Shown here piece by piece: positions 4,509 through 21,288 of a stretch of 45,514 nt of DNA. The stretch is taken from positions 1 to 45,514 of the forward strand of contig JAEORX010000006.1 in NCBI GenBank assembly GCA_016840685.1, written 5' to 3'. The notes under the pieces are model-generated. The model was not told where the DNA came from and did no database searches. It saw nothing but the letters and a program-made list of their open reading frames with translations. The number at the start of each line of letters is the position of its first letter. Position 1 is the stretch's first letter. Position numbers and translations under genes: made by a program. Source of the stretch: Candidatus Thorarchaeota archaeon (GTDB taxonomy: Archaea; Asgardarchaeota; Thorarchaeia; Thorarchaeales; Thorarchaeaceae).

Positions 4509-4682
4509 TCCTCATCTCTTTTAGCCTACCCTAATCCAACATCCTCTTGGTTTTTGGTGGAGATTTTTGCGTGCTTGTATGTATTACCCACATCTATGCT
4601 TTTGAGCCTTCTAGTGATGTACTCAGCAAAGGTCTCTATGGTCACCCTTATAGGATGAGTATCTACAACGAGCATGATTTGC

Positions 4683-5291
4683 ATGTCGACCAAAGAAGAT
4701 GTTGGTATTATATGCCCCTCTTGTAATGAAACAAGACTCCAAGTACGCTCCATACTCTACAGTATACCCTTCTTCAATGAATTGGCGATGTTCTCAATGG
4801 AATGTCCATCATGTCATTTTCACCACAATGATGTATTTTCAGCAGAAAAAAGGAAGCCTACACGTTTCATACTTCATGTTGACAACCCAGCTCTTCTTAG
4901 AGCACGTGTTGTTCGTTCAGGTTCTGGCACTTTCCGACTTCCAGAGTTTGGCATTGATGTAGAGCCAGGTCCGTCTGCTGAGTCTTTTATAACTAATGTT
5001 GAGGGTGTCCTTCAACGGACAATGTCCGTGGTGGAAACTGCAATCAGTTTTGCAGAAGAGCCGGAAGAGAAGACCAAGGGTGCTGAGATCCTGTTTCAGA
5101 TGAATCTTGCAATAAAGGGAGATTTGCCGTTCACACTCGTGATTGAGGACCCTGCAGGTGTGAGTGGCATCATTCCTGATGACATGTCAAAGGTGAAGAT
5201 TGAGGAACTCAGTCTTGAGGAAGCATCGAAATTGAAAGGGGCTCCATTCTGGCTTGATACAATTCGGGAGGATTACGCTGCTCAGAAATAG
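4683..5291 (+). CDS. ZPR1-type zinc-finger protein
   Basis: A 202-aa protein with one ZPR1 module, as in archaea (eukaryotic ZPR1 has two). The zinc finger is CPSC near residue 11 and CPSC about 30 residues later, followed by FHHNDVF and the beta-rich domain with FRLPEFGIDVEPGP and IEDPAGVSGI. In eukaryotes ZPR1 binds and helps fold elongation factor eEF1A; the archaeal role is inferred to be similar. ATG 4683 (MSTKEDVG) is preferred over ATG 4674. A TATA-like CTTATAGG at 4648-4655 lies about 28 nt upstream, fitting a leaderless transcript. It is divergent from the longin-like gene and lies directly before the tRNA. Confidence 0.88.
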   Translation: MSTKEDVGIICPSCNETRLQVRSILYSIPFFNELAMFSMECPSCHFHHNDVFSAEKRKPTRFILHVDNPALLRARVVRSGSGTFRLPEFGIDVEPGPSAESFITNVEGVLQRTMSVVETAISFAEEPEEKTKGAEILFQMNLAIKGDLPFTLVIEDPAGVSGIIPDDMSKVKIEELSLEEASKLKGAPFWLDTIREDYAAQK

Positions 5292-13810: not shown

Positions 13811-14182
13811 TTAGTATCCCCACTCCTGTCCCAGTCTCTGACGATACCACCGCTGTCCCTTTTTGGTCAGAGAGTATTGTCCTTGCATCTCAGAGAGAAG
13901 TCCCATTTCTTCCATACTTCGAACGACTCCGAATAGTTTGTCCTCTGAGGCTCCAGTTGCGTGTCGGAGGCTCTCAAAGTCCATCCTTCCATTTCTCTTC
14001 AGATGCTGAGCAATGTCGAACTTACCAACAGCTCTCGTTTCTGTGCGGACAATGATATGACCGCAGTTTGTGCATAGGAGGTCTCCCTTGTGATCATCAC
14101 GAGCGACTTCCCTGCTTCCACAGACGGGGCAGGTCGTTTTTGCGAATCTTAGTGAACGTCTGTTTGACATGATTCCGACCAT
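13811..14182 (-). CDS. TFIIB-type zinc ribbon plus winged-helix protein
   Basis: A 123-aa putative transcription factor. Residues ~17-45 (CPVCGS ... CTNCGHII) form a rubredoxin-knuckle zinc ribbon resembling the TFIIB/TFB N-terminus. Residues ~55-115 (FDIAQHLKRNGRMDFESL, KLFGVVRSMEEMGLL, YSLTKKGQRWYRQRL) form a winged-helix domain. TFB cyclin folds are absent, so it is not a complete TFB. It probably regulates transcription by DNA or RNA polymerase contact (inference). ATG 14182 is the first start; ATG 14170 (MSNRRSL) is possible. A TTTTATC element about 25 bases upstream fits a leaderless mRNA. The ScpB/kite-like gene lies upstream on the same strand. Confidence 0.75.
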   Translation of the reverse strand: MVGIMSNRRSLRFAKTTCPVCGSREVARDDHKGDLLCTNCGHIIVRTETRAVGKFDIAQHLKRNGRMDFESLRHATGASEDKLFGVVRSMEEMGLLSEMQGQYSLTKKGQRWYRQRLGQEWGY

Positions 14183-14233
14183 GCTGGGGTTTAACGTTGT
14201 CTTGATAAAACTAACGAAGACGCCACAATTTGA

Positions 14234-14740
14234 CTACGGTCTCTCAGAAACAAGATCTCTAAAGAATGCCTCATAGTCTATCTCAAAGGGAACGCGCATT
14301 CCTAACCTCACTCTCTTTGCTGTCTGGTCTAGTTCGATATATCCAAGATTCTGTAACTCTCTAAGGTCTTCAATGACTCCTCTAAGGCTCTTTTTTCTAA
14401 ACTCCCGAACTCGGTCAAAATTGACCCAGCCCCCCTCCTGATAGGCTAGTGTAATCACGATGAGGAGAGTTGCAGCCAGTCTATCAGGAAGCATGGAGTC
14501 ATCTGGTCCTGACTTTGCTAGGTGTGATGTGTCAACATAGAAAACTCCACTAACCGGATTGTGTTTGATTGTGAGCCCTATTGGTTCTAACCTGGAATGC
14601 AGGTCGCTCAAACGTCTGAAGAGAATCTCCCTTCCCAAATCCTCTGGAAGCCCAAGGGCATCGAGCATGTCATCTACTCCCGCGCCTATTGGGTCTCCAG
14701 ACCGTGTAAGGAGCTTCATTAAGATGGCATACTCATTCAT
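14234..14740 (-). CDS. double winged-helix protein, possible ScpB/kite
   Basis: A 168-aa protein with two winged-helix-like halves. The N-terminal half is MNEYAILMKLLTRSGDPIG ... LFRRLSDLHSRLEPIGLTI with strand GVFYVDTSHL. The C-terminal half is LAATLLIVITLAYQEGGWV, VREFRKKSLRGVIEDLRELQNLGYIEL. The second half resembles the ScpB pattern, in which LAxIAYxxP is followed by an xxxRxxxxxxxixxLxexGLI helix. ScpB (kite) proteins bind the kleisin ScpA, and smc-scpA lie 2.5 kb away, which favours that reading. A generic wHTH regulator remains possible. ATG 14740 has no SD, and a TATA-like CAATATACTA (14763-14772, minus strand) suggests a leaderless mRNA. Confidence 0.5.
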   Translation of the reverse strand: MNEYAILMKLLTRSGDPIGAGVDDMLDALGLPEDLGREILFRRLSDLHSRLEPIGLTIKHNPVSGVFYVDTSHLAKSGPDDSMLPDRLAATLLIVITLAYQEGGWVNFDRVREFRKKSLRGVIEDLRELQNLGYIELDQTAKRVRLGMRVPFEIDYEAFFRDLVSERP

Positions 14741-14891
14741 TTTTTTCAGCAAGGTGACTTCGTAGTATATTGTTTAAAACCTGAGGGTTTCATGTAGTTC
14801 CAACAAAAAATAAGCGCCATGAAAATTAATTGTGCAGATTGAAAATCTCAATAAGTGATTTCGCGAATCTTGCCAGAATTGGTGTTTGTAC

Positions 14892-15320
14892 ATGACAATA
14901 ACAAGAGAATACATTTCGAGGGAACGCATAATGGCTATCCTTCTGGTTGTTAATTTCCTCCTTACAACCCCCTTTCTATATGCAGCGGGTTTTGTACAGG
15001 ACTATCTTGCTCTTATTCTCCAGGCTCTTGTACCTTCGATTGCAGCTTTTGTTGAGTATGTTACATTATGGCATTCAGAAGGAAAGAAGGCTCTGGATTC
15101 GAATTATTCATATATAGCCCTCTTTTTATTGTTGGTTTATCAGCCTGTTTTCTTTGACTACGGATTGCTTTCTGTAGTACTCAATCCAGCAAGACTCCTT
15201 ACTATCCAATTCTGGGTTTTAAATTGGAGTTTCATGATCAGCTGGTTCACTGGTCGAGCGATTGTAAGGCTGGTATACCTCCAGACTCGTTCCAAATCTA
15301 TTATTGACTCATCAGATTAG
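14892..15320 (+). CDS. four-helix membrane protein, unknown
   Basis: A 142-aa integral membrane protein. Helices fall at roughly residues 13-33 (IMAILLVVNFLLTTPFLYAA), 36-58 (YLALILQALVPSIAAFVEYV), 72-92 (YIALFLLLVYQPVFFDYG) and 100-128 (LLTIQFWVLNWSFMISWFTG). A basic N-terminus (ITREYISRER) suggests a cytoplasmic N-terminus. I recognise no family. ATG 14892 is preferred over the in-frame TTG 14886. It precedes the micro-protein/MFS cluster by 85 bases, but a TATA box between them suggests separate transcription. Confidence 0.65.
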   Translation: MTITREYISRERIMAILLVVNFLLTTPFLYAAGFVQDYLALILQALVPSIAAFVEYVTLWHSEGKKALDSNYSYIALFLLLVYQPVFFDYGLLSVVLNPARLLTIQFWVLNWSFMISWFTGRAIVRLVYLQTRSKSIIDSSD

Positions 15321-15328
15321 TAACAATA

Positions 15329-15374
15329 TGTGACTTCATTCTGTGACCCTCACAAGTGGCTTCGCTATATATAC
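15329..15374 (+). promoter_or_regulatory. promoter of the micro-protein/MFS operon
   Basis: TATATATAC at about 15366-15374 lies ~33 nt before ATG 15406 and would give a leader of about 10 nt. Just upstream TGTGAC occurs twice, 13 bases apart (15329-15334, 15342-15347). The same GTGACC word, in both orientations, is repeated inside the operon around 15573-15637, so it may be an operator. Confidence 0.45.
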
Positions 15375-15405
15375 TAAATCTCAGCAGTATCTCTTGTGAA
15401 ATATC

Positions 15406-15510
15406 ATGGCTCAGGCAACTAACTCTCGGAACTCGTCTGTGTTCAAGAAGAAGAAGTCAGTCATTAGCACTGATGCAATCTCATACGCTTACTTCTCTGT
15501 TTTGAGGTGA
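15406..15510 (+). CDS. micro-protein 1 of tandem family
   Basis: A 34-aa ORF. The N-terminus is Ser/Asn-rich, followed by KKKK, and the C-terminus is SVISTDAISYAYFSVLR. The end matches the ends of micro-proteins 3 and 4 (consensus ST(D/E)A(I/L), two or three residues, Y(F/I), ending in Arg), while N-termini differ. A conserved end with variable start in three neighbouring short ORFs argues for real genes. It has its own TATA box and starts the run that reads into the MFS transporter. The C-terminal 15 residues could form an amphipathic helix (inference). Function unknown. Confidence 0.6.
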   Translation: MAQATNSRNSSVFKKKKSVISTDAISYAYFSVLR

Positions 15511-15570
15511 AGTGTTTGAACAACCTTCTGAGAATGGCGAGCCTTGTCTGGTTTGACACTCAGATGACCC

Positions 15571-15660
15571 ATGATGGTCACAGAGTGGTCAGAGATATGG
15601 TCAGTTATTCTCAGAAACAGCATATCCTGTGACCATCTATATGGAATGTGTGAAAGATGA
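15571..15660 (+). CDS. possible degenerate micro-protein 2
   Basis: A 29-aa ORF (MMVTEWSEIWSVILRN ... LYGMCER) whose TGA overlaps the ATGATG of micro-protein 3, a coupling-type overlap. Its end keeps only the Tyr and final Arg of the family motif. A competing 32-aa ORF in another frame (15534-15632, MASLVWFDTQ) has no match to the family. The stretch is also rich in repeats (11-bp inverted repeat and TGGTCA copies), so it may be regulatory rather than coding. Which reading is right cannot be decided here. Confidence 0.25.
   Translation: MMVTEWSEIWSVILRNSISCDHLYGMCER
15573..15637. repeat. 11-bp inverted repeat with TGGTCA repeats
   Basis: GATGGTCACAG (15573-15583) and CTGTGACCATC (15627-15637) are perfect inverted copies 43 bases apart. 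TGGTCA recurs at about 15575, 15586 and 15597, roughly one helical turn apart. The arrangement suits either a cooperative operator or a long RNA hairpin inside the operon. Confidence 0.6.
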
Positions 15661-15770
15661 TGAAATCAGATTATAACTCTAAACTCAATCGACTTGTCAA
15701 TGACACCAAGTTCCCGCACATTCAATCAACTGAGGCACTGGCTTATGCCTACATTACTGTAAGAAGGTGA
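15657..15770 (+). CDS. micro-protein 3 of tandem family
   Basis: A 37-aa ORF from ATG 15657 (36 aa from the adjacent ATG 15660). The N-terminus KSDYNSKLNRLVNDTK is polar and basic. The C-terminus HIQSTEALAYAYITVRR is the clearest copy of the family motif. The stop lies within AGGTGA, which doubles as the SD of micro-protein 4, so the two are probably translated in sequence. Pairwise similarity to micro-proteins 1 and 4 is confined to the last ~18 residues. Function unknown; presumably cytoplasmic, since there is no signal peptide or membrane helix. Confidence 0.65.
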   Translation: MMKSDYNSKLNRLVNDTKFPHIQSTEALAYAYITVRR

Positions 15771-15774
15771 AAGA

Positions 15775-15873
15775 ATGGCTCTAGCAAAGATTGAAGGAAC
15801 TCCACGTGTTTGGAGAGAAACAAAGACAATCATGTCAACCGAGGCACTAGCAAGGACTTATTTCAGGAGATAG
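15775..15873 (+). CDS. micro-protein 4 of tandem family
   Basis: A 32-aa ORF with polar N-terminus MALAKIEGTPRVWRETK and C-terminus TIMSTEALARTYFRR, sharing STEALA with micro-protein 3. ATG 15775 follows GGTGA with four bases between. Its last codons (CAGGAGATAG) supply the AGGAGA SD for the MFS gene, which starts six bases after the stop. This is good evidence that the short ORF is translated as part of the operon. A longer MFS start (15810) would overlap it and is not needed. Confidence 0.65.
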   Translation: MALAKIEGTPRVWRETKTIMSTEALARTYFRR

Positions 15874-15878
15874 TCCAT

Positions 15879-17222
15879 ATGACCGAAGTTGCAACTCTGG
15901 ACGAAAACGAACAAAATAATGATGCAAAGGGATTCAGAGGAGTCCTTGCTCATAGGGACTTCTCATTGCTATGGTCCGGGCAACTGGTTTCCAACATTGG
16001 TACTGCAATTGCATCTCTGGCCCTCATGTTCTATGCCTATGCTCTTACAGGTTCTGCACTGTCAATGGCTATCCTAGTAATGGCTGAAACACTACCAGTC
16101 GTCGCATTTGCAGGTCCCATTGGCGTTTACATTGATCGTTGGAACAGAAAGACAATCATGGTAGCTGCTGATATTGTTCGTGCTGTCGCCATCATCCTCA
16201 TTCCTCTTACAGTACACTTCCCATCCTTTTTACCTACAATCTATTGGGTTTACATCCTGACATTTGTGTTTGCTACTGCAAATGCCTGGTTCTTTCCCGC
16301 AAGGAGTGCATCCATCCCAAATCTTGTGGAGGGCGATGAGTTAATTGCAGCCAACTCTCTTTCTCAAATGACATTCCAGGTTGTACAGTTAGTGTTCCCT
16401 CCTATTGGTGGTCTACTGGTTGCACTCCTTGCTCCTGATTACTTCTTGGCATTTGCAATCAACTCAGCTGCATTCCTCTTTTCTGCTGTTGCACTTCAAG
16501 GAATAGCAACTGATCTTCAACCAAAACGTGATTCTGTTATCCGGGAATCACTGGTGGCGCAGATTCAGCAAGGTGCTCGATATGTAATTGGCAATTCTAT
16601 CCTGTCATTCCTCTTTGTGTTTGCGATGTTGCTTGCGGTATCATCAGGTATCCTCAATGCGCTTTTCATACCATACCTCGAAGGTGAACGTGCTCTAGGT
16701 TCAACCCAAGTTGGTCTGGTGCTGAGTGCTGGAGCTGCTTCCGGAGCTGCTGCCGCAGTCTATTTCAGTCGCAAGAAGGAGATTGACAGACCCCTCTATC
16801 TAATCTCTTCTGCAGGACTCCTCGCAGGAGTTGCAGTCTTTGCTCTCGTTCTAGCTTTCGACCTTTTGACAGTGATGCTGTCTTGGGTAATGATTGGAGC
16901 TGTAGATGTCATTCTGAACATTCCTCTTACTGTTCTTATGCAGGAGCTAGTAGAAGACAAGCTGCGTGGTCGGGTCTTTGCACTTCTCAATGTTGCATTC
17001 ACTGCTGTGCAGGTCATCGGAATGGGTATAGGTGGAGTCTGGGCTGAGGTTGTTGTTTCAACAGGTCCTCCCATGATCGGAGCGGCTCTTGCTCTCACAT
17101 TTGTTTCTTTGGTTGGTTTTCTAGCAGTAGCAAAGTTCAACCTACACGGAAGACTTTCAAAACCCATCGAAGAAACAATAGAATCCAGAGAAGAGATTAT
17201 TCCTATTGAGGTTCCTGCTTGA
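15879..17222 (+). CDS. MFS transporter, DHA3/MefA-like
   Basis: A 447-aa, 12-helix major facilitator. The N-terminal FRGVLAHRDFSLLWSGQLVS, then GxAIASLAL, tGSALSMA and the loop GVYIDRWNRKTIM match the DHA3 drug-antiporter group, which exports hydrophobic compounds using proton motive force. The second half has the LRGRVFALLN motif (loop 10-11). The C-terminal tail is acidic (IEETIESREEIIPIEVPA). The ATG at 15879 is chosen because AGGAGA lies eight bases upstream, inside the end of micro-protein 4. The substrate is unknown, and coupling to the micro-proteins may mean they act on or through it (inference). Confidence 0.9.
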   Translation: MTEVATLDENEQNNDAKGFRGVLAHRDFSLLWSGQLVSNIGTAIASLALMFYAYALTGSALSMAILVMAETLPVVAFAGPIGVYIDRWNRKTIMVAADIVRAVAIILIPLTVHFPSFLPTIYWVYILTFVFATANAWFFPARSASIPNLVEGDELIAANSLSQMTFQVVQLVFPPIGGLLVALLAPDYFLAFAINSAAFLFSAVALQGIATDLQPKRDSVIRESLVAQIQQGARYVIGNSILSFLFVFAMLLAVSSGILNALFIPYLEGERALGSTQVGLVLSAGAASGAAAAVYFSRKKEIDRPLYLISSAGLLAGVAVFALVLAFDLLTVMLSWVMIGAVDVILNIPLTVLMQELVEDKLRGRVFALLNVAFTAVQVIGMGIGGVWAEVVVSTGPPMIGAALALTFVSLVGFLAVAKFNLHGRLSKPIEETIESREEIIPIEVPA

Positions 17223-17246: not shown

Positions 17247-17906
17247 CTACGTGAAGTCAATGTCTGAAACTGAGGGTCTCCAGACCTCGCGTGTTTCTGG
17301 ATTATATTGCAACCGTCCTTTTGAAACCAAAATCACAACATAGAGGAAGTTTTTCAGAAAGGACTCGAACTCGTCATGCATTACAAGATCATTGAACTTC
17401 ATCTTACTACCTTCTGGAATCGTTGCGAGGAATCTTTCTAGATCATCAAGGAACACGGAGTCTTCTGTTTCCAGGGTATATCCATTAGGTAGTGAAGTGA
17501 TCTGAGGAACAGAGTCCTCAGGAGGTTCACGCGCCATTGCGTCTATTAGTGTAACCACTCTGTTTAGAGCGTTTACTAGTGACTCATGCTCTAGATGCCC
17601 TATGAGCACCGGTTGTTTTGACGTGACCATTTTGGAGAGATGTCGTACTGGTACTTCCTTTATCCTACTTACATAGACCTCTGGCGCAGCGAGTATCCGG
17701 GCAAGTTCCTGTACCCTATCAACCTTTGCACTAAGTATCTCATTCAACATCTCATCAATGTCAATTCGTTTATCGATTCTCTCTGAGAGTAGCTGAAGGT
17801 CTCTATAAGCCTGGGTGAGTCTGAGCTCAAGTGGGTCAATCTCGCCTGAACGAACAGCCTGAACCATGTCAAAGACACCCTTGGCAAGACTATAGTCGTC
17901 ACTCAT
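17247..17906 (-). CDS. scpA: kleisin ScpA, SMC partner
   Basis: A 219-aa kleisin. The N-terminal helices after YSLAKGVFDMVQAVRSGEIDP, and the C-terminal winged helix (KMKFNDLVMHDEFESFLKNF, YVVILVSKGRLQY, TREVWRP), match archaeal ScpA. It bridges the two SMC heads to close the ring that organises and segregates chromosomes. The gene follows smc by 13 bases. ATG 17906 is preferred; an in-frame TTG at 17912 lies closer to the AGGA ribosome site in the smc stop region. No scpB is in the same operon; a candidate lies at 14234-14740. Confidence 0.88.
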   Translation of the reverse strand: MSDDYSLAKGVFDMVQAVRSGEIDPLELRLTQAYRDLQLLSERIDKRIDIDEMLNEILSAKVDRVQELARILAAPEVYVSRIKEVPVRHLSKMVTSKQPVLIGHLEHESLVNALNRVVTLIDAMAREPPEDSVPQITSLPNGYTLETEDSVFLDDLERFLATIPEGSKMKFNDLVMHDEFESFLKNFLYVVILVSKGRLQYNPETREVWRPSVSDIDFT

Positions 17907-17919
17907 TCCCAACCACTTC

Positions 17920-20900
17920 CTATTGAGCCTTGAACTGGGGGCTCTCGATTATCACTGATGGCTCCACTCCGTTTGGTGACACGACACCTAGGATTTTATC
18001 AGCATGTTTCAACAAGTGTGTGCTTTTTGCAGGTGTGAGTAAAATGAACTGACTCCGTCGGGATGCATCATGAAACAATCGGCTGACAAGTTCAGTGTTT
18101 GTCGCGTCAAGAAATGTGTCAACCTCATCCATGACATACACAGGTGCAGGATTGAACCGTTGCAATGCGAGAATGAGACCAATTGCGATGAGAGACCTCT
18201 CCCCGCCAGAACCTGCACTAATATCTCCAAAGCCCTCAGTCTTTATTCTTGATTTGAACTCCACACCATAGTTGCCATCTCTCAGAGCAAGTGCGAAACG
18301 CACACTACCAGGGAATTGCACTCTCCCTAGAACCTCATTCACCCCTTTCTCAACTTTCCTGAGTGTTTCATTCATACCATTATGATATTGTTCTCGGATA
18401 TTACGTACCGCAGATTCTGCTTCTTCAAGCTCTTCTCCAAGTTCTGCCACTCTCATTACTAATGTTTGAAGTCGGTCCTTCAATTGGCTCTCTGTGTGCG
18501 CTATCGTTTCTGAAACATCATCATAGTCATCAAGGATGTGCCTGAGTTTCACTAGTTCACTCCTTACATCGTCAATTACTCTGATATTGTCAGGTCTCTG
18601 TTTTCCCTCCAGTTCCTGTTCCACTAACTCGAGGTCATATTCAAGGTTTGTCAGTTGTCTCTTTGATTGCACAACCTCAAGTCTGCGATTCTTAACAAGT
18701 AGATTGAGTTCCACAAGCCGTTCACTGAGTTTCCGAATTATGTTGCGAATCCCAGTGAGCTGTTCCCTTATGCCCATCTGTTTCTGTTTTGCATCGTCTC
18801 GTCCTTCACGCATGATCTCAATCTTTTCTAGAATGGCGGCGGCTTCATCCTTCGATTGTTTGATTTCCAGACGCAGATCATTTAGACTGTCAGTTAAAAC
18901 TGTGATACTTTCACAGACCCTCTTCAACTCTTGTCTTTTAAGCTGCTCATCTTTCTCTGAGGCATGTGCATTGTTGTCTGCTTTTGTCAATTCAGTCTGC
19001 AGTCGACGATGTTTCGTCCTGATGGCTGACTCTTGTCCAACTAATCTACTTCTTTCAGGGGGTTGCGTATTATCGAGTTTTCTCAGGTTTCTTTCTGCTT
19101 TACCGTAGTCCTGTCGCAGACCTTTCAGCTCGTCATTAATGGATGCAATACGCTCTTCCAACTCCGGAATACTTTCATTCAGTTTCCTTCTCCGCTCCCA
19201 AGTTGAGCCCCATCGAGTCATTTGACTGATTAGTTCTATTGTTTCCTCTCGTTCGTTCGAGAGAGCTTCCAATTTAGACATTATACTAGTAACTCTTCTA
19301 CTTTCTACAGTCAGTTCTTTTTCCATCTTCGTCATTCGTGTCTGAAGTGGAGCAGTTGAAACCATCCCCGATGGCTCACTCTTAGGATGGCTTATGATTT
19401 GCTTGTCATCAGGAATAATGACCAAGCCGTCTTGGGTGACGACTCGGTGATTCTGTCTTGTTGCAAGACTAACAGCTGTCTGAGAGTTTTTCACTAGCAC
19501 AAAATCTCCGAACACCTTAGCCATGAGCGATTTCATAGATGCATCAGCTGTGAGCCTGTCCCACAGCCACTCCTGTACTCCTGACCCTTGAGGAAGTTCA
19601 GTTCTAGTTTTTTCTTCAACATCCCTGAGAAGGATTATTGGCGAAGGTGCTTCCTCCTTATTGCGTAACTTCAGTAGAAGCTGATAGTCCGACTGCTCGG
19701 TTGTGACAAAAGCTAATGGGAGATTGCCTGAAAGCACACCCTCTACAGCAGTTGAAACCTCATCATCTGCCGTAAATAAACTGATGAGTGGTCCTTTCAC
19801 ACTCTCTAGACCATGCTCTGTAATTGCTTCACTCAGGCTTCTGACTGATTCAGGGATGCGTTTTGAAGTTTCAGTTAGACGGACTTTGATGTCATCAATA
19901 TCTTTCTGGAGCATTGCCACAAGACTGGTCTTCCTGAACCGTTCCTCATTGAGAGAAGCAATCTCCCTTTCTAACTGGGACTTCTTTCTTTCCAGCTCTT
20001 TTGCATCTGTCTTTTCTATCCTATCCCACATATGTGACCATTTGTTTTCTATTGCCTGAAGTTCAGCTTCTTCTAACTGGAGCCTCTCGCGAAGACTTCT
20101 CATGAAGAGGTCCTTGCCCTCAATCTCAGCCTGAAGTGCTTTGTAGTGGCCATGTGCTTCAGCTCTCTTTGTGTTCCATTCTGCAAATGCGGCCAGTTCA
20201 TCCTGTATTCGAGACCGTTCTTCCTCCAGTTCGCTGAGTTCGTCACGCAATAGCTTTTGTTGCTCCATATAGTGTTCCCTTGCTGCAGATACTCTTTCTA
20301 GGTCTTCTCTCAGCTTCTCCTCTTTCCGTTTCTCGGCCTTAACACCATTCTCAAGTTGGCGTAGTTCAACTATTTGCTTCTTCGAATCTCCCTCGAGTTT
20401 GGAGAGGTTTTTCTCCTCTTCTTCAATTTTAGCATCAATTCTACCAAGTTCTGTTTGTAGTCCCGATAGACTGGTTTCTAACTCGTTGTTCCTTTCCTCT
20501 TCTTTAGCAATCTGTCCCTCAACATCAGATTGCTCTTCAAGTATCCCAACCAGACCGGATTCCTTTGTTTCAATCTCATCCTTAGTCTGCTGTATTCTTT
20601 TTGATAGATCGTCTAAGCTTGCCCACTTCAATTCCTGTTCAAGGTTTCTCTCTTGTTCTTGTAGCGCTCTCTTCTTCTCAAGACGAGAGAGATCATTTTG
20701 CAGCAACTCGAGTTCTCGTTCAACGGTTCTAGACTCACTAAGGGCTGTGTCAAGCTTCTGACGACTTTGTATCACCTCGGTTTCCTGGAGACCAATCCTA
20801 TCTCTAAGAACATCAAGTCCTGTCCCCTCCTCAACAAGTCTTCTGACCTCAAATGGGTCCATCTCTCTTATCGCATTGATTCTCTCCTGTGGCATGAACA

Positions 20901-21288
20901 CAAGAGGGTTGTCTGTTTCAAGTCCAAGAGCGCTAATCATTCGTTTCTGTTCTGCAGCTTTGATTCGCTTTCCATCTGCATATGCACGAGGGATACCATC
21001 TCTATCAATCCGCCTTAGAAACCTCCGACTCTGCCCATTGACTTTTACAATGATTTCCGCCTCTGCTGTACTTGCGCCGTGTCGGATGAAATCGCTCCAC
21101 TTACTATACCGGTTCTCCCTCTGGTTTGACCCGAGTGCAAATTTAAGAGCATGGAAAATCGATGTCTTTCCCGATCCATTTGGTCCCGCCAAGACAGTGA
21201 GACCTTTGTCAAACTCAACTCTTCCCTTGTAGAAGGAAAGGAAATTCCCAAGCCGTATGCTTTCGATTTCTACTCTAGCTTCACTCAT
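17920..21288 (-). CDS. smc: SMC chromosome condensation ATPase
   Basis: A 1122-aa SMC protein. The N-terminal head has Walker A GPNGSGKTS (35-43). Two long coiled coils (about 170-470 and 640-940) flank a hinge near residues 490-620 (GPLISLFTADDEVSTAVEGVL, AFVTTEQSDYQLLL). The C-terminal head has the signature SAGSGGERSL (near 1027) and Walker B VYVMDEVDTFLD (near 1049). SMC dimers hold and extrude DNA loops with ScpA. It is shorter than typical bacterial SMC, and VYVMDEVDTFLDATN differs from the usual FLLDEVDAALD form, so it may be a divergent archaeal clade. The start codon abuts the stop of the upstream AAA+-like gene with no gap. Confidence 0.93.
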   Translation of the reverse strand: MSEARVEIESIRLGNFLSFYKGRVEFDKGLTVLAGPNGSGKTSIFHALKFALGSNQRENRYSKWSDFIRHGASTAEAEIIVKVNGQSRRFLRRIDRDGIPRAYADGKRIKAAEQKRMISALGLETDNPLVFMPQERINAIREMDPFEVRRLVEEGTGLDVLRDRIGLQETEVIQSRQKLDTALSESRTVERELELLQNDLSRLEKKRALQEQERNLEQELKWASLDDLSKRIQQTKDEIETKESGLVGILEEQSDVEGQIAKEEERNNELETSLSGLQTELGRIDAKIEEEEKNLSKLEGDSKKQIVELRQLENGVKAEKRKEEKLREDLERVSAAREHYMEQQKLLRDELSELEEERSRIQDELAAFAEWNTKRAEAHGHYKALQAEIEGKDLFMRSLRERLQLEEAELQAIENKWSHMWDRIEKTDAKELERKKSQLEREIASLNEERFRKTSLVAMLQKDIDDIKVRLTETSKRIPESVRSLSEAITEHGLESVKGPLISLFTADDEVSTAVEGVLSGNLPLAFVTTEQSDYQLLLKLRNKEEAPSPIILLRDVEEKTRTELPQGSGVQEWLWDRLTADASMKSLMAKVFGDFVLVKNSQTAVSLATRQNHRVVTQDGLVIIPDDKQIISHPKSEPSGMVSTAPLQTRMTKMEKELTVESRRVTSIMSKLEALSNEREETIELISQMTRWGSTWERRRKLNESIPELEERIASINDELKGLRQDYGKAERNLRKLDNTQPPERSRLVGQESAIRTKHRRLQTELTKADNNAHASEKDEQLKRQELKRVCESITVLTDSLNDLRLEIKQSKDEAAAILEKIEIMREGRDDAKQKQMGIREQLTGIRNIIRKLSERLVELNLLVKNRRLEVVQSKRQLTNLEYDLELVEQELEGKQRPDNIRVIDDVRSELVKLRHILDDYDDVSETIAHTESQLKDRLQTLVMRVAELGEELEEAESAVRNIREQYHNGMNETLRKVEKGVNEVLGRVQFPGSVRFALALRDGNYGVEFKSRIKTEGFGDISAGSGGERSLIAIGLILALQRFNPAPVYVMDEVDTFLDATNTELVSRLFHDASRRSQFILLTPAKSTHLLKHADKILGVVSPNGVEPSVIIESPQFKAQ

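Follow-up and report, generated by a model that had tools for sequence, protein, structure and literature searches.

The three short open reading frames (ORFs) that precede an MFS transporter gene in the window, the whole 45,514-nucleotide stretch of Thorarchaeota DNA analyzed here, are members of one previously uncatalogued micro-protein family. In whole-genome searches, micro-ORF matches were found in 46 of 47 genomes and 13 of 13 genera of the Thorarchaeota family to which the window belongs, and in none of the 181 genomes searched from other Asgard families. Family members are ~27–37 residues long, none of the micro-ORF matches listed contained an internal stop, and a single genome carries up to 14 of them in short operons scattered along the chromosome; the genome of the window has 12 matches in five such cassettes. 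That these are genuine, related micro-proteins, as the initial annotation had proposed, is confirmed, and the extent of the family goes far beyond what was first described. We read the window locus as one cassette of a lineage-wide Thorarchaeota micro-protein system, an explanation that, taken whole, is the best we have and falls just short of an even chance of being right.

All three ORFs lie on the forward strand and were found with the extents and C-termini originally described. Micro-ORF 1 (15406–15510, M1 subtype) encodes a basic 34-aa protein, MAQATNSRNSSVFKKKKSVISTDAISYAYFSVLR, with a predicted C-terminal helix. Micro-ORF 2′ (15660–15770) encodes 36 aa ending in STEALAYAYITVRR, or 37 aa if translation begins at the ATG at 15657; homologues favour the second ATG, at 15660. 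Its end, AGAAGGTGA, serves as the Shine-Dalgarno (SD) sequence for micro-ORF 3 (15775–15873, M2 subtype), which encodes 32 aa ending in STEALARTYFRR. This chaining of stops, starts and SD sequences recurs in the cassettes, with the SD of the second ORF usually within the last codons of the first. Upstream, on the same strand, lies promoter P1 (15318–15405), which comprises a palindrome, GTAACAATATGTGAC (15320–15334), a TGTGACC half-site (15342–15348), a TATA box, TATATATAC (15366–15374), as had been reported before micro-ORF 1, and the start region. The genes flanking the cassette and MFS gene (13811–14752 and 17247–21288 of the window) resemble a condensin set: an SMC ATPase (PF02463) and an unassigned 221-aa neighbour downstream, and an unassigned 172-aa protein and a TFIIB-type zinc-ribbon protein upstream.

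A profile search returned 187 small-ORF matches in the first 90 loci, some of them mutually overlapping, and 426 matches, representing 239 distinct DNA sequences, in the enlarged locus set; within the fetched loci these reached E ~1e-16, far above chance. In a DNA search of relatives, window positions 15318–15480 were multi-copy across the genera of one family, and the MFS gene itself mostly matched single loci. With 36 aligned members of the family we obtained no credible match in Pfam or PHROGs (best E 0.13 or worse) and no match in NCBIfam or the PDB; an Rfam scan of 14800–16000 was likewise negative, and our literature searches returned no mention of the family. The suggestion that the micro-proteins match no known family thus stands.

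Selection clearly preserves the micro-proteins at the protein level. We compared codons across 119 distinct sequences of M1 and 79 of M2. Codons for the invariant T, A, A, Y and R of the C-terminal motif, TxA[ILV]xxA[YF]...R, showed pS values of ~0.5–0.85 against pN values of 0.00–0.13, the exception being the second alanine of M2 (pN 0.31). For the terminal R of M1, pS was 0.68 and pN 0.09. High synonymous change with almost no replacement change at these residues indicates that selection acts on the protein. The proposed conserved C-terminus is supported. Conservation of the C-terminus, above all of its AGG codons, is partly explained by an SD role, as most terminal Arg codons are AGG and double as SD sequence. 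The terminal Arg is nonetheless not maintained for the SD only, because it is retained as CGC in last ORFs that no start codon follows. A conserved end with a variable front does not describe the family as a general rule: first-position members share MALTTNSRNTSVLKNK-like N-termini across genera.

The motif lies on a predicted helix. AlphaFold places the helix at residues 22–33, with a mean pLDDT of 84 for residues 21–30 and low values for the remainder. Both M1 (median pI 10.4) and M2 (median pI 10.7) are basic, and the micro-proteins are not hydrophobic overall (median GRAVY ~−0.5). Some variants carry LYYEY or LYYDY in place of AYxY (L098 at 4612–4725, L177 at 5097–5204, and L219–L221), and one of these replaces M1 before an MFS gene. 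Three known patterns, a PqqA (PQQ-precursor)-like E-x3-Y pattern, a PIP box and a proteasome HbYX C-terminus, were each rejected since the residues they require vary in the alignment.

The MFS gene (15879–17222, forward strand, 447 aa, PF07690/PF05977) begins 5 nt after AGGAGATAG (15865–15873), the AGGAGA-stop of micro-ORF 3, which forms its SD as the initial annotation had noted. Among the same-genus orthologues examined, 5–6 nt separate the end of the last micro-ORF from the MFS start; the exception is L012, whose last recognised micro-ORF sits farther away. In loci of three other genera, the last micro-ORF touches (0 nt) or overlaps the MFS start. Only a diverged micro-ORF, ~100 nt upstream, was seen in L013/L073, and none was seen in the stretch read of L245, a distant MFS homologue with 44% identity. 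At the window locus, the sequence gives good support to the predicted translational coupling between the last micro-ORF and the MFS pump. The closest profiles to the transporter were TIGR00900 (E 2.8e-65; 221 bits against a cut-off of 319.6), Mef (Mef(B), 78 against a cut-off of 800) and EntS; it belongs to the same superfamily as TIGR00900, Mef(A,B) and EntS but falls below all their curated cut-offs, while meeting those of MFS_1 and MFS_3. That the pump defines the system is not supported: MFS matches at E ≤ 1e-60 occurred in 20 of the 47 family genomes, compared with 46 of 47 for the micro-ORFs.

Aligned copies of P1 share the consensus TAGTMACA-N3-TGTGACTy-n-TGTGACCCTCA-n-AGTGGCTTCGCTATATATACTAAATCTGAGCAGTATTTCTTGTGAAATATCATGGC, made up of the palindrome GTMACA-N3-TGTGAC, further GTGACC half-sites and the TATA box. 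Identity is ~75–90% in dozens of cassettes, and nearly all copies open an ORF of 33–36 aa. When 84,980 species genomes were scanned with the P1 pattern, 111 stretches matched; all those listed came from Thorarchaeota MAGs except one, which bears the label Lokiarchaeota (RBin_111) and has cassettes similar to those in Thorarchaeota isolate BC. The exact pattern had no match in the viral contig collection scanned. The extended putative operator was present at 2–6 copies per genome in 16 of 16 same-genus genomes, and a reversed operator used as a control had no match in those 16. Besides cassettes, it lies upstream of a gene for a multi-pass membrane protein in the genome of the window and, in eight other loci inspected, each from a different genome (L234–L241), upstream of a gene for a bactofilin-like protein of 413–417 aa; the one such protein scanned matched PF04519.

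Between micro-ORFs 1 and 2′ lies a further conserved stretch, element B (15554–15663, forward strand), with three TGGTCA-type sites, a TATA-like CATATC and GTGACCA. It recurs upstream of both MFS groups, of a GNAT acetyltransferase gene and of a stand-alone cassette without P1. Its single-sequence fold had a z of −2.7; the consensus fold over 29 sequences reached only −2.65 kcal/mol with none conserved, and a structured RNA was rejected on that basis. As element B lacks a conserved RNA fold, a DNA element is preferred, and we interpret it as a putative second promoter/operator. In four loci (L085, L086, L088 and L053), P1 and element B stand directly before, and would drive, a long GNAT acetyltransferase gene. 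In the first three of these loci, micro-ORF 1 has been lost, is broken or could not be seen.

The same stretch accounts for the degenerate fourth micro-protein that had been suggested in this gap, a GTG ORF at 15507–15632. Among five orthologues, the gap measures 146, 149, 149, 148 and 149 nt, and one of them does not keep the frame. We rejected the fourth micro-ORF as element B read as protein; its apparent conservation arises from the promoter/operator-like DNA at 15554–15663. Frameshifts within conserved DNA, which the initial annotation had regarded as evidence against micro-proteins, were seen for the proposed fourth member and not for the three ORFs.

The usual operon opens with the highly conserved promoter, which is followed by micro-ORFs 1 and 2 and, in many cases, by a third ORF. 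Third ORFs (42 distinct, in many stand-alone cassettes) have a variable N-terminus, are usually acidic (median pI 4.9) and end in EVLxLEAT, for example EVLALEAT; their stop codon falls within a terminator-like hairpin that leads into a T-rich stretch. They are absent from MFS-adjacent and tRNA-adjacent cassettes. In L031, L043, L108 and others, the EVLALEAT end coincides with the hairpin, and one sequence may serve both protein and RNA. Among 88 cassettes with enough flank, 35 (~40%) had no same-strand ORF of at least 80 aa starting within 350 nt downstream, a count in which some of the ORFs scored as present are probably antisense noise.

Five locus types recur. Type A has the MFS gene as in the window, and type B a second MFS group that in many loci has an apparent promoter of its own. 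Type C cassettes adjoin a gene for desulfoferrodoxin and a convergent gene, those of type D follow a PolX-like gene, and those of type E follow the gene for a Zn-ribbon membrane protein. The genome of the window also holds a further type, whose different promoter has GGTTTG/CAAACC sites. In cassettes with such a promoter (L212, L216, L217, L218), these sites stand before TTATATAC and resemble sites upstream of the second MFS group. The recurrent neighbours scanned, a subset of all neighbours, comprised MFS, desulfoferrodoxin, PolX-like, GNAT, Zn-ribbon and uncharacterised proteins, and included no known modification enzyme.

Some copies within a genome are near-identical. Cassettes of types A and E in G011 share an identity of 0.97, five cassettes in G022 share 0.86–0.97, and such copies, although of different locus types, exceed the identity to orthologues elsewhere; other copies group by type. 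Two sets, L223–L227 and L108, L146, L149 and L164, each comprise four to five near-identical stand-alone cassettes, spread over unrelated chromosomal positions of a single genome. Because many cassettes hold orthologous positions between species, a mobile element was rejected, and the pattern better fits vertical descent with gene conversion between copies.

The micro-ORFs might instead be cis-acting leader peptides, with C-terminal nascent-chain arrest or translational coupling tuning the efflux pump. The erm/mef leader peptides tune their genes in this way in bacteria, and the ermBL/ermCL and mef/msr leaders are likewise short ORFs just 5′ of a Mef-type efflux gene with interlocked end and SD signals. 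Here, too, tandem ORFs stand upstream of a Mef/EntS-type pump, the stop codon directly follows the conserved block and is overlapped by the next SD, and coupling is conserved. However, the archaeal micro-ORFs encode a conserved protein family, the N-terminus of M1 included, and a gene to be regulated in cis is not always present: ~40% of cassettes have none downstream, and a terminator-like hairpin closes many cassettes. Arrest motifs usually keep a constant spacing to the stop or stall codon, whereas the distance from the AY motif to the terminal Arg varies (AYFRR, AYxYRR and AYxTVVR types). The many cassettes with no downstream gene indicate that the micro-proteins are not merely leader peptides, and action in trans, rather than only as cis leaders, is further favoured by the selection on protein and by the variable spacing between motif and stop. 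We consider the leader-peptide explanation unlikely.

Three other readings are less supported. Export of the micro-proteins by the MFS protein, as signals or as leaderless bacteriocin-like or modified peptides, would suit cationic, ~30-aa products in tandem, the link of MFS pumps to several cassettes and the GNAT gene in the regulon. Leaderless multi-peptide operons such as those for phenol-soluble modulins and garvicin KS also encode tandem, related, cationic ~30-aa peptides. Unlike those, the present proteins are not hydrophobic overall, are conserved across genera rather than diversified and at most cassettes lack a dedicated exporter or immunity gene; they have no apparent signal sequence, the recurrent neighbours scanned include no recognisable modification enzyme, and many genomes have micro-ORFs but no MFS of the window type. 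This leaves export doubtful. A toxin-antitoxin-like set, in which the basic M1 and M2 are neutralised by the mostly acidic third ORF product, would resemble type II systems in its small, tightly coupled ORFs of opposite charge, palindromic operator and dispersed multi-copy cassettes. Yet we found two basic members and an optional third in place of a constant pair, no family match, and near-universal presence at conserved positions, unlike mobile toxin-antitoxin loci, and regard this reading as improbable. A conserved non-coding RNA or DNA element that merely happens to contain ORFs is most improbable: P1 and element B are conserved as DNA, and the 3′ hairpin over the third ORF keeps some pairs through changes on both sides, but the codon-level signature, the lack of internal stops in the homologues listed, the poor consensus fold of element B and the negative Rfam scan all point the other way.

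On the preferred reading, the micro-proteins are quite probably functional products acting in trans. We propose that a transcription factor would bind the GTMACA-N3-TGTGAC/GTGACC sites and switch the cassettes, together with the efflux pumps, the GNAT acetyltransferase, the bactofilin and the membrane protein. Termination-reinitiation would yield the micro-proteins in fixed proportion, and their C-terminal helices may dock on a common partner, whether protein, ribosome or nucleic acid. At the window locus, the pump would be translated mainly after the micro-proteins had been made. The micro-proteins may thereby form part of a toxicant or envelope-stress response. We hold this stress/efflux setting tentatively, at slightly less than even chances, as it derives from how the families of the co-regulated genes are named; the MFS protein itself scores below every curated Mef/EntS cut-off.

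Gene callers usually miss proteins of such short length. A micro-protein family that is near-universal and multi-copy within one Thorarchaeota family, that has an exceptionally well conserved promoter and whose coupling to an efflux pump is conserved is a concrete and testable piece of Asgard "dark matter"; it offers an exact motif, operator and loci for experiments. It is quite possible, if still the less probable outcome, that these proteins represent a new archaeal class of micro-proteins working in sets of two or three. Multi-copy cassettes, partly homogenised and governed by a dedicated regulator, would then yield them at a fixed ratio, and their short C-terminal helices would act on a shared cellular target to adjust envelope and efflux functions in this Asgard lineage.
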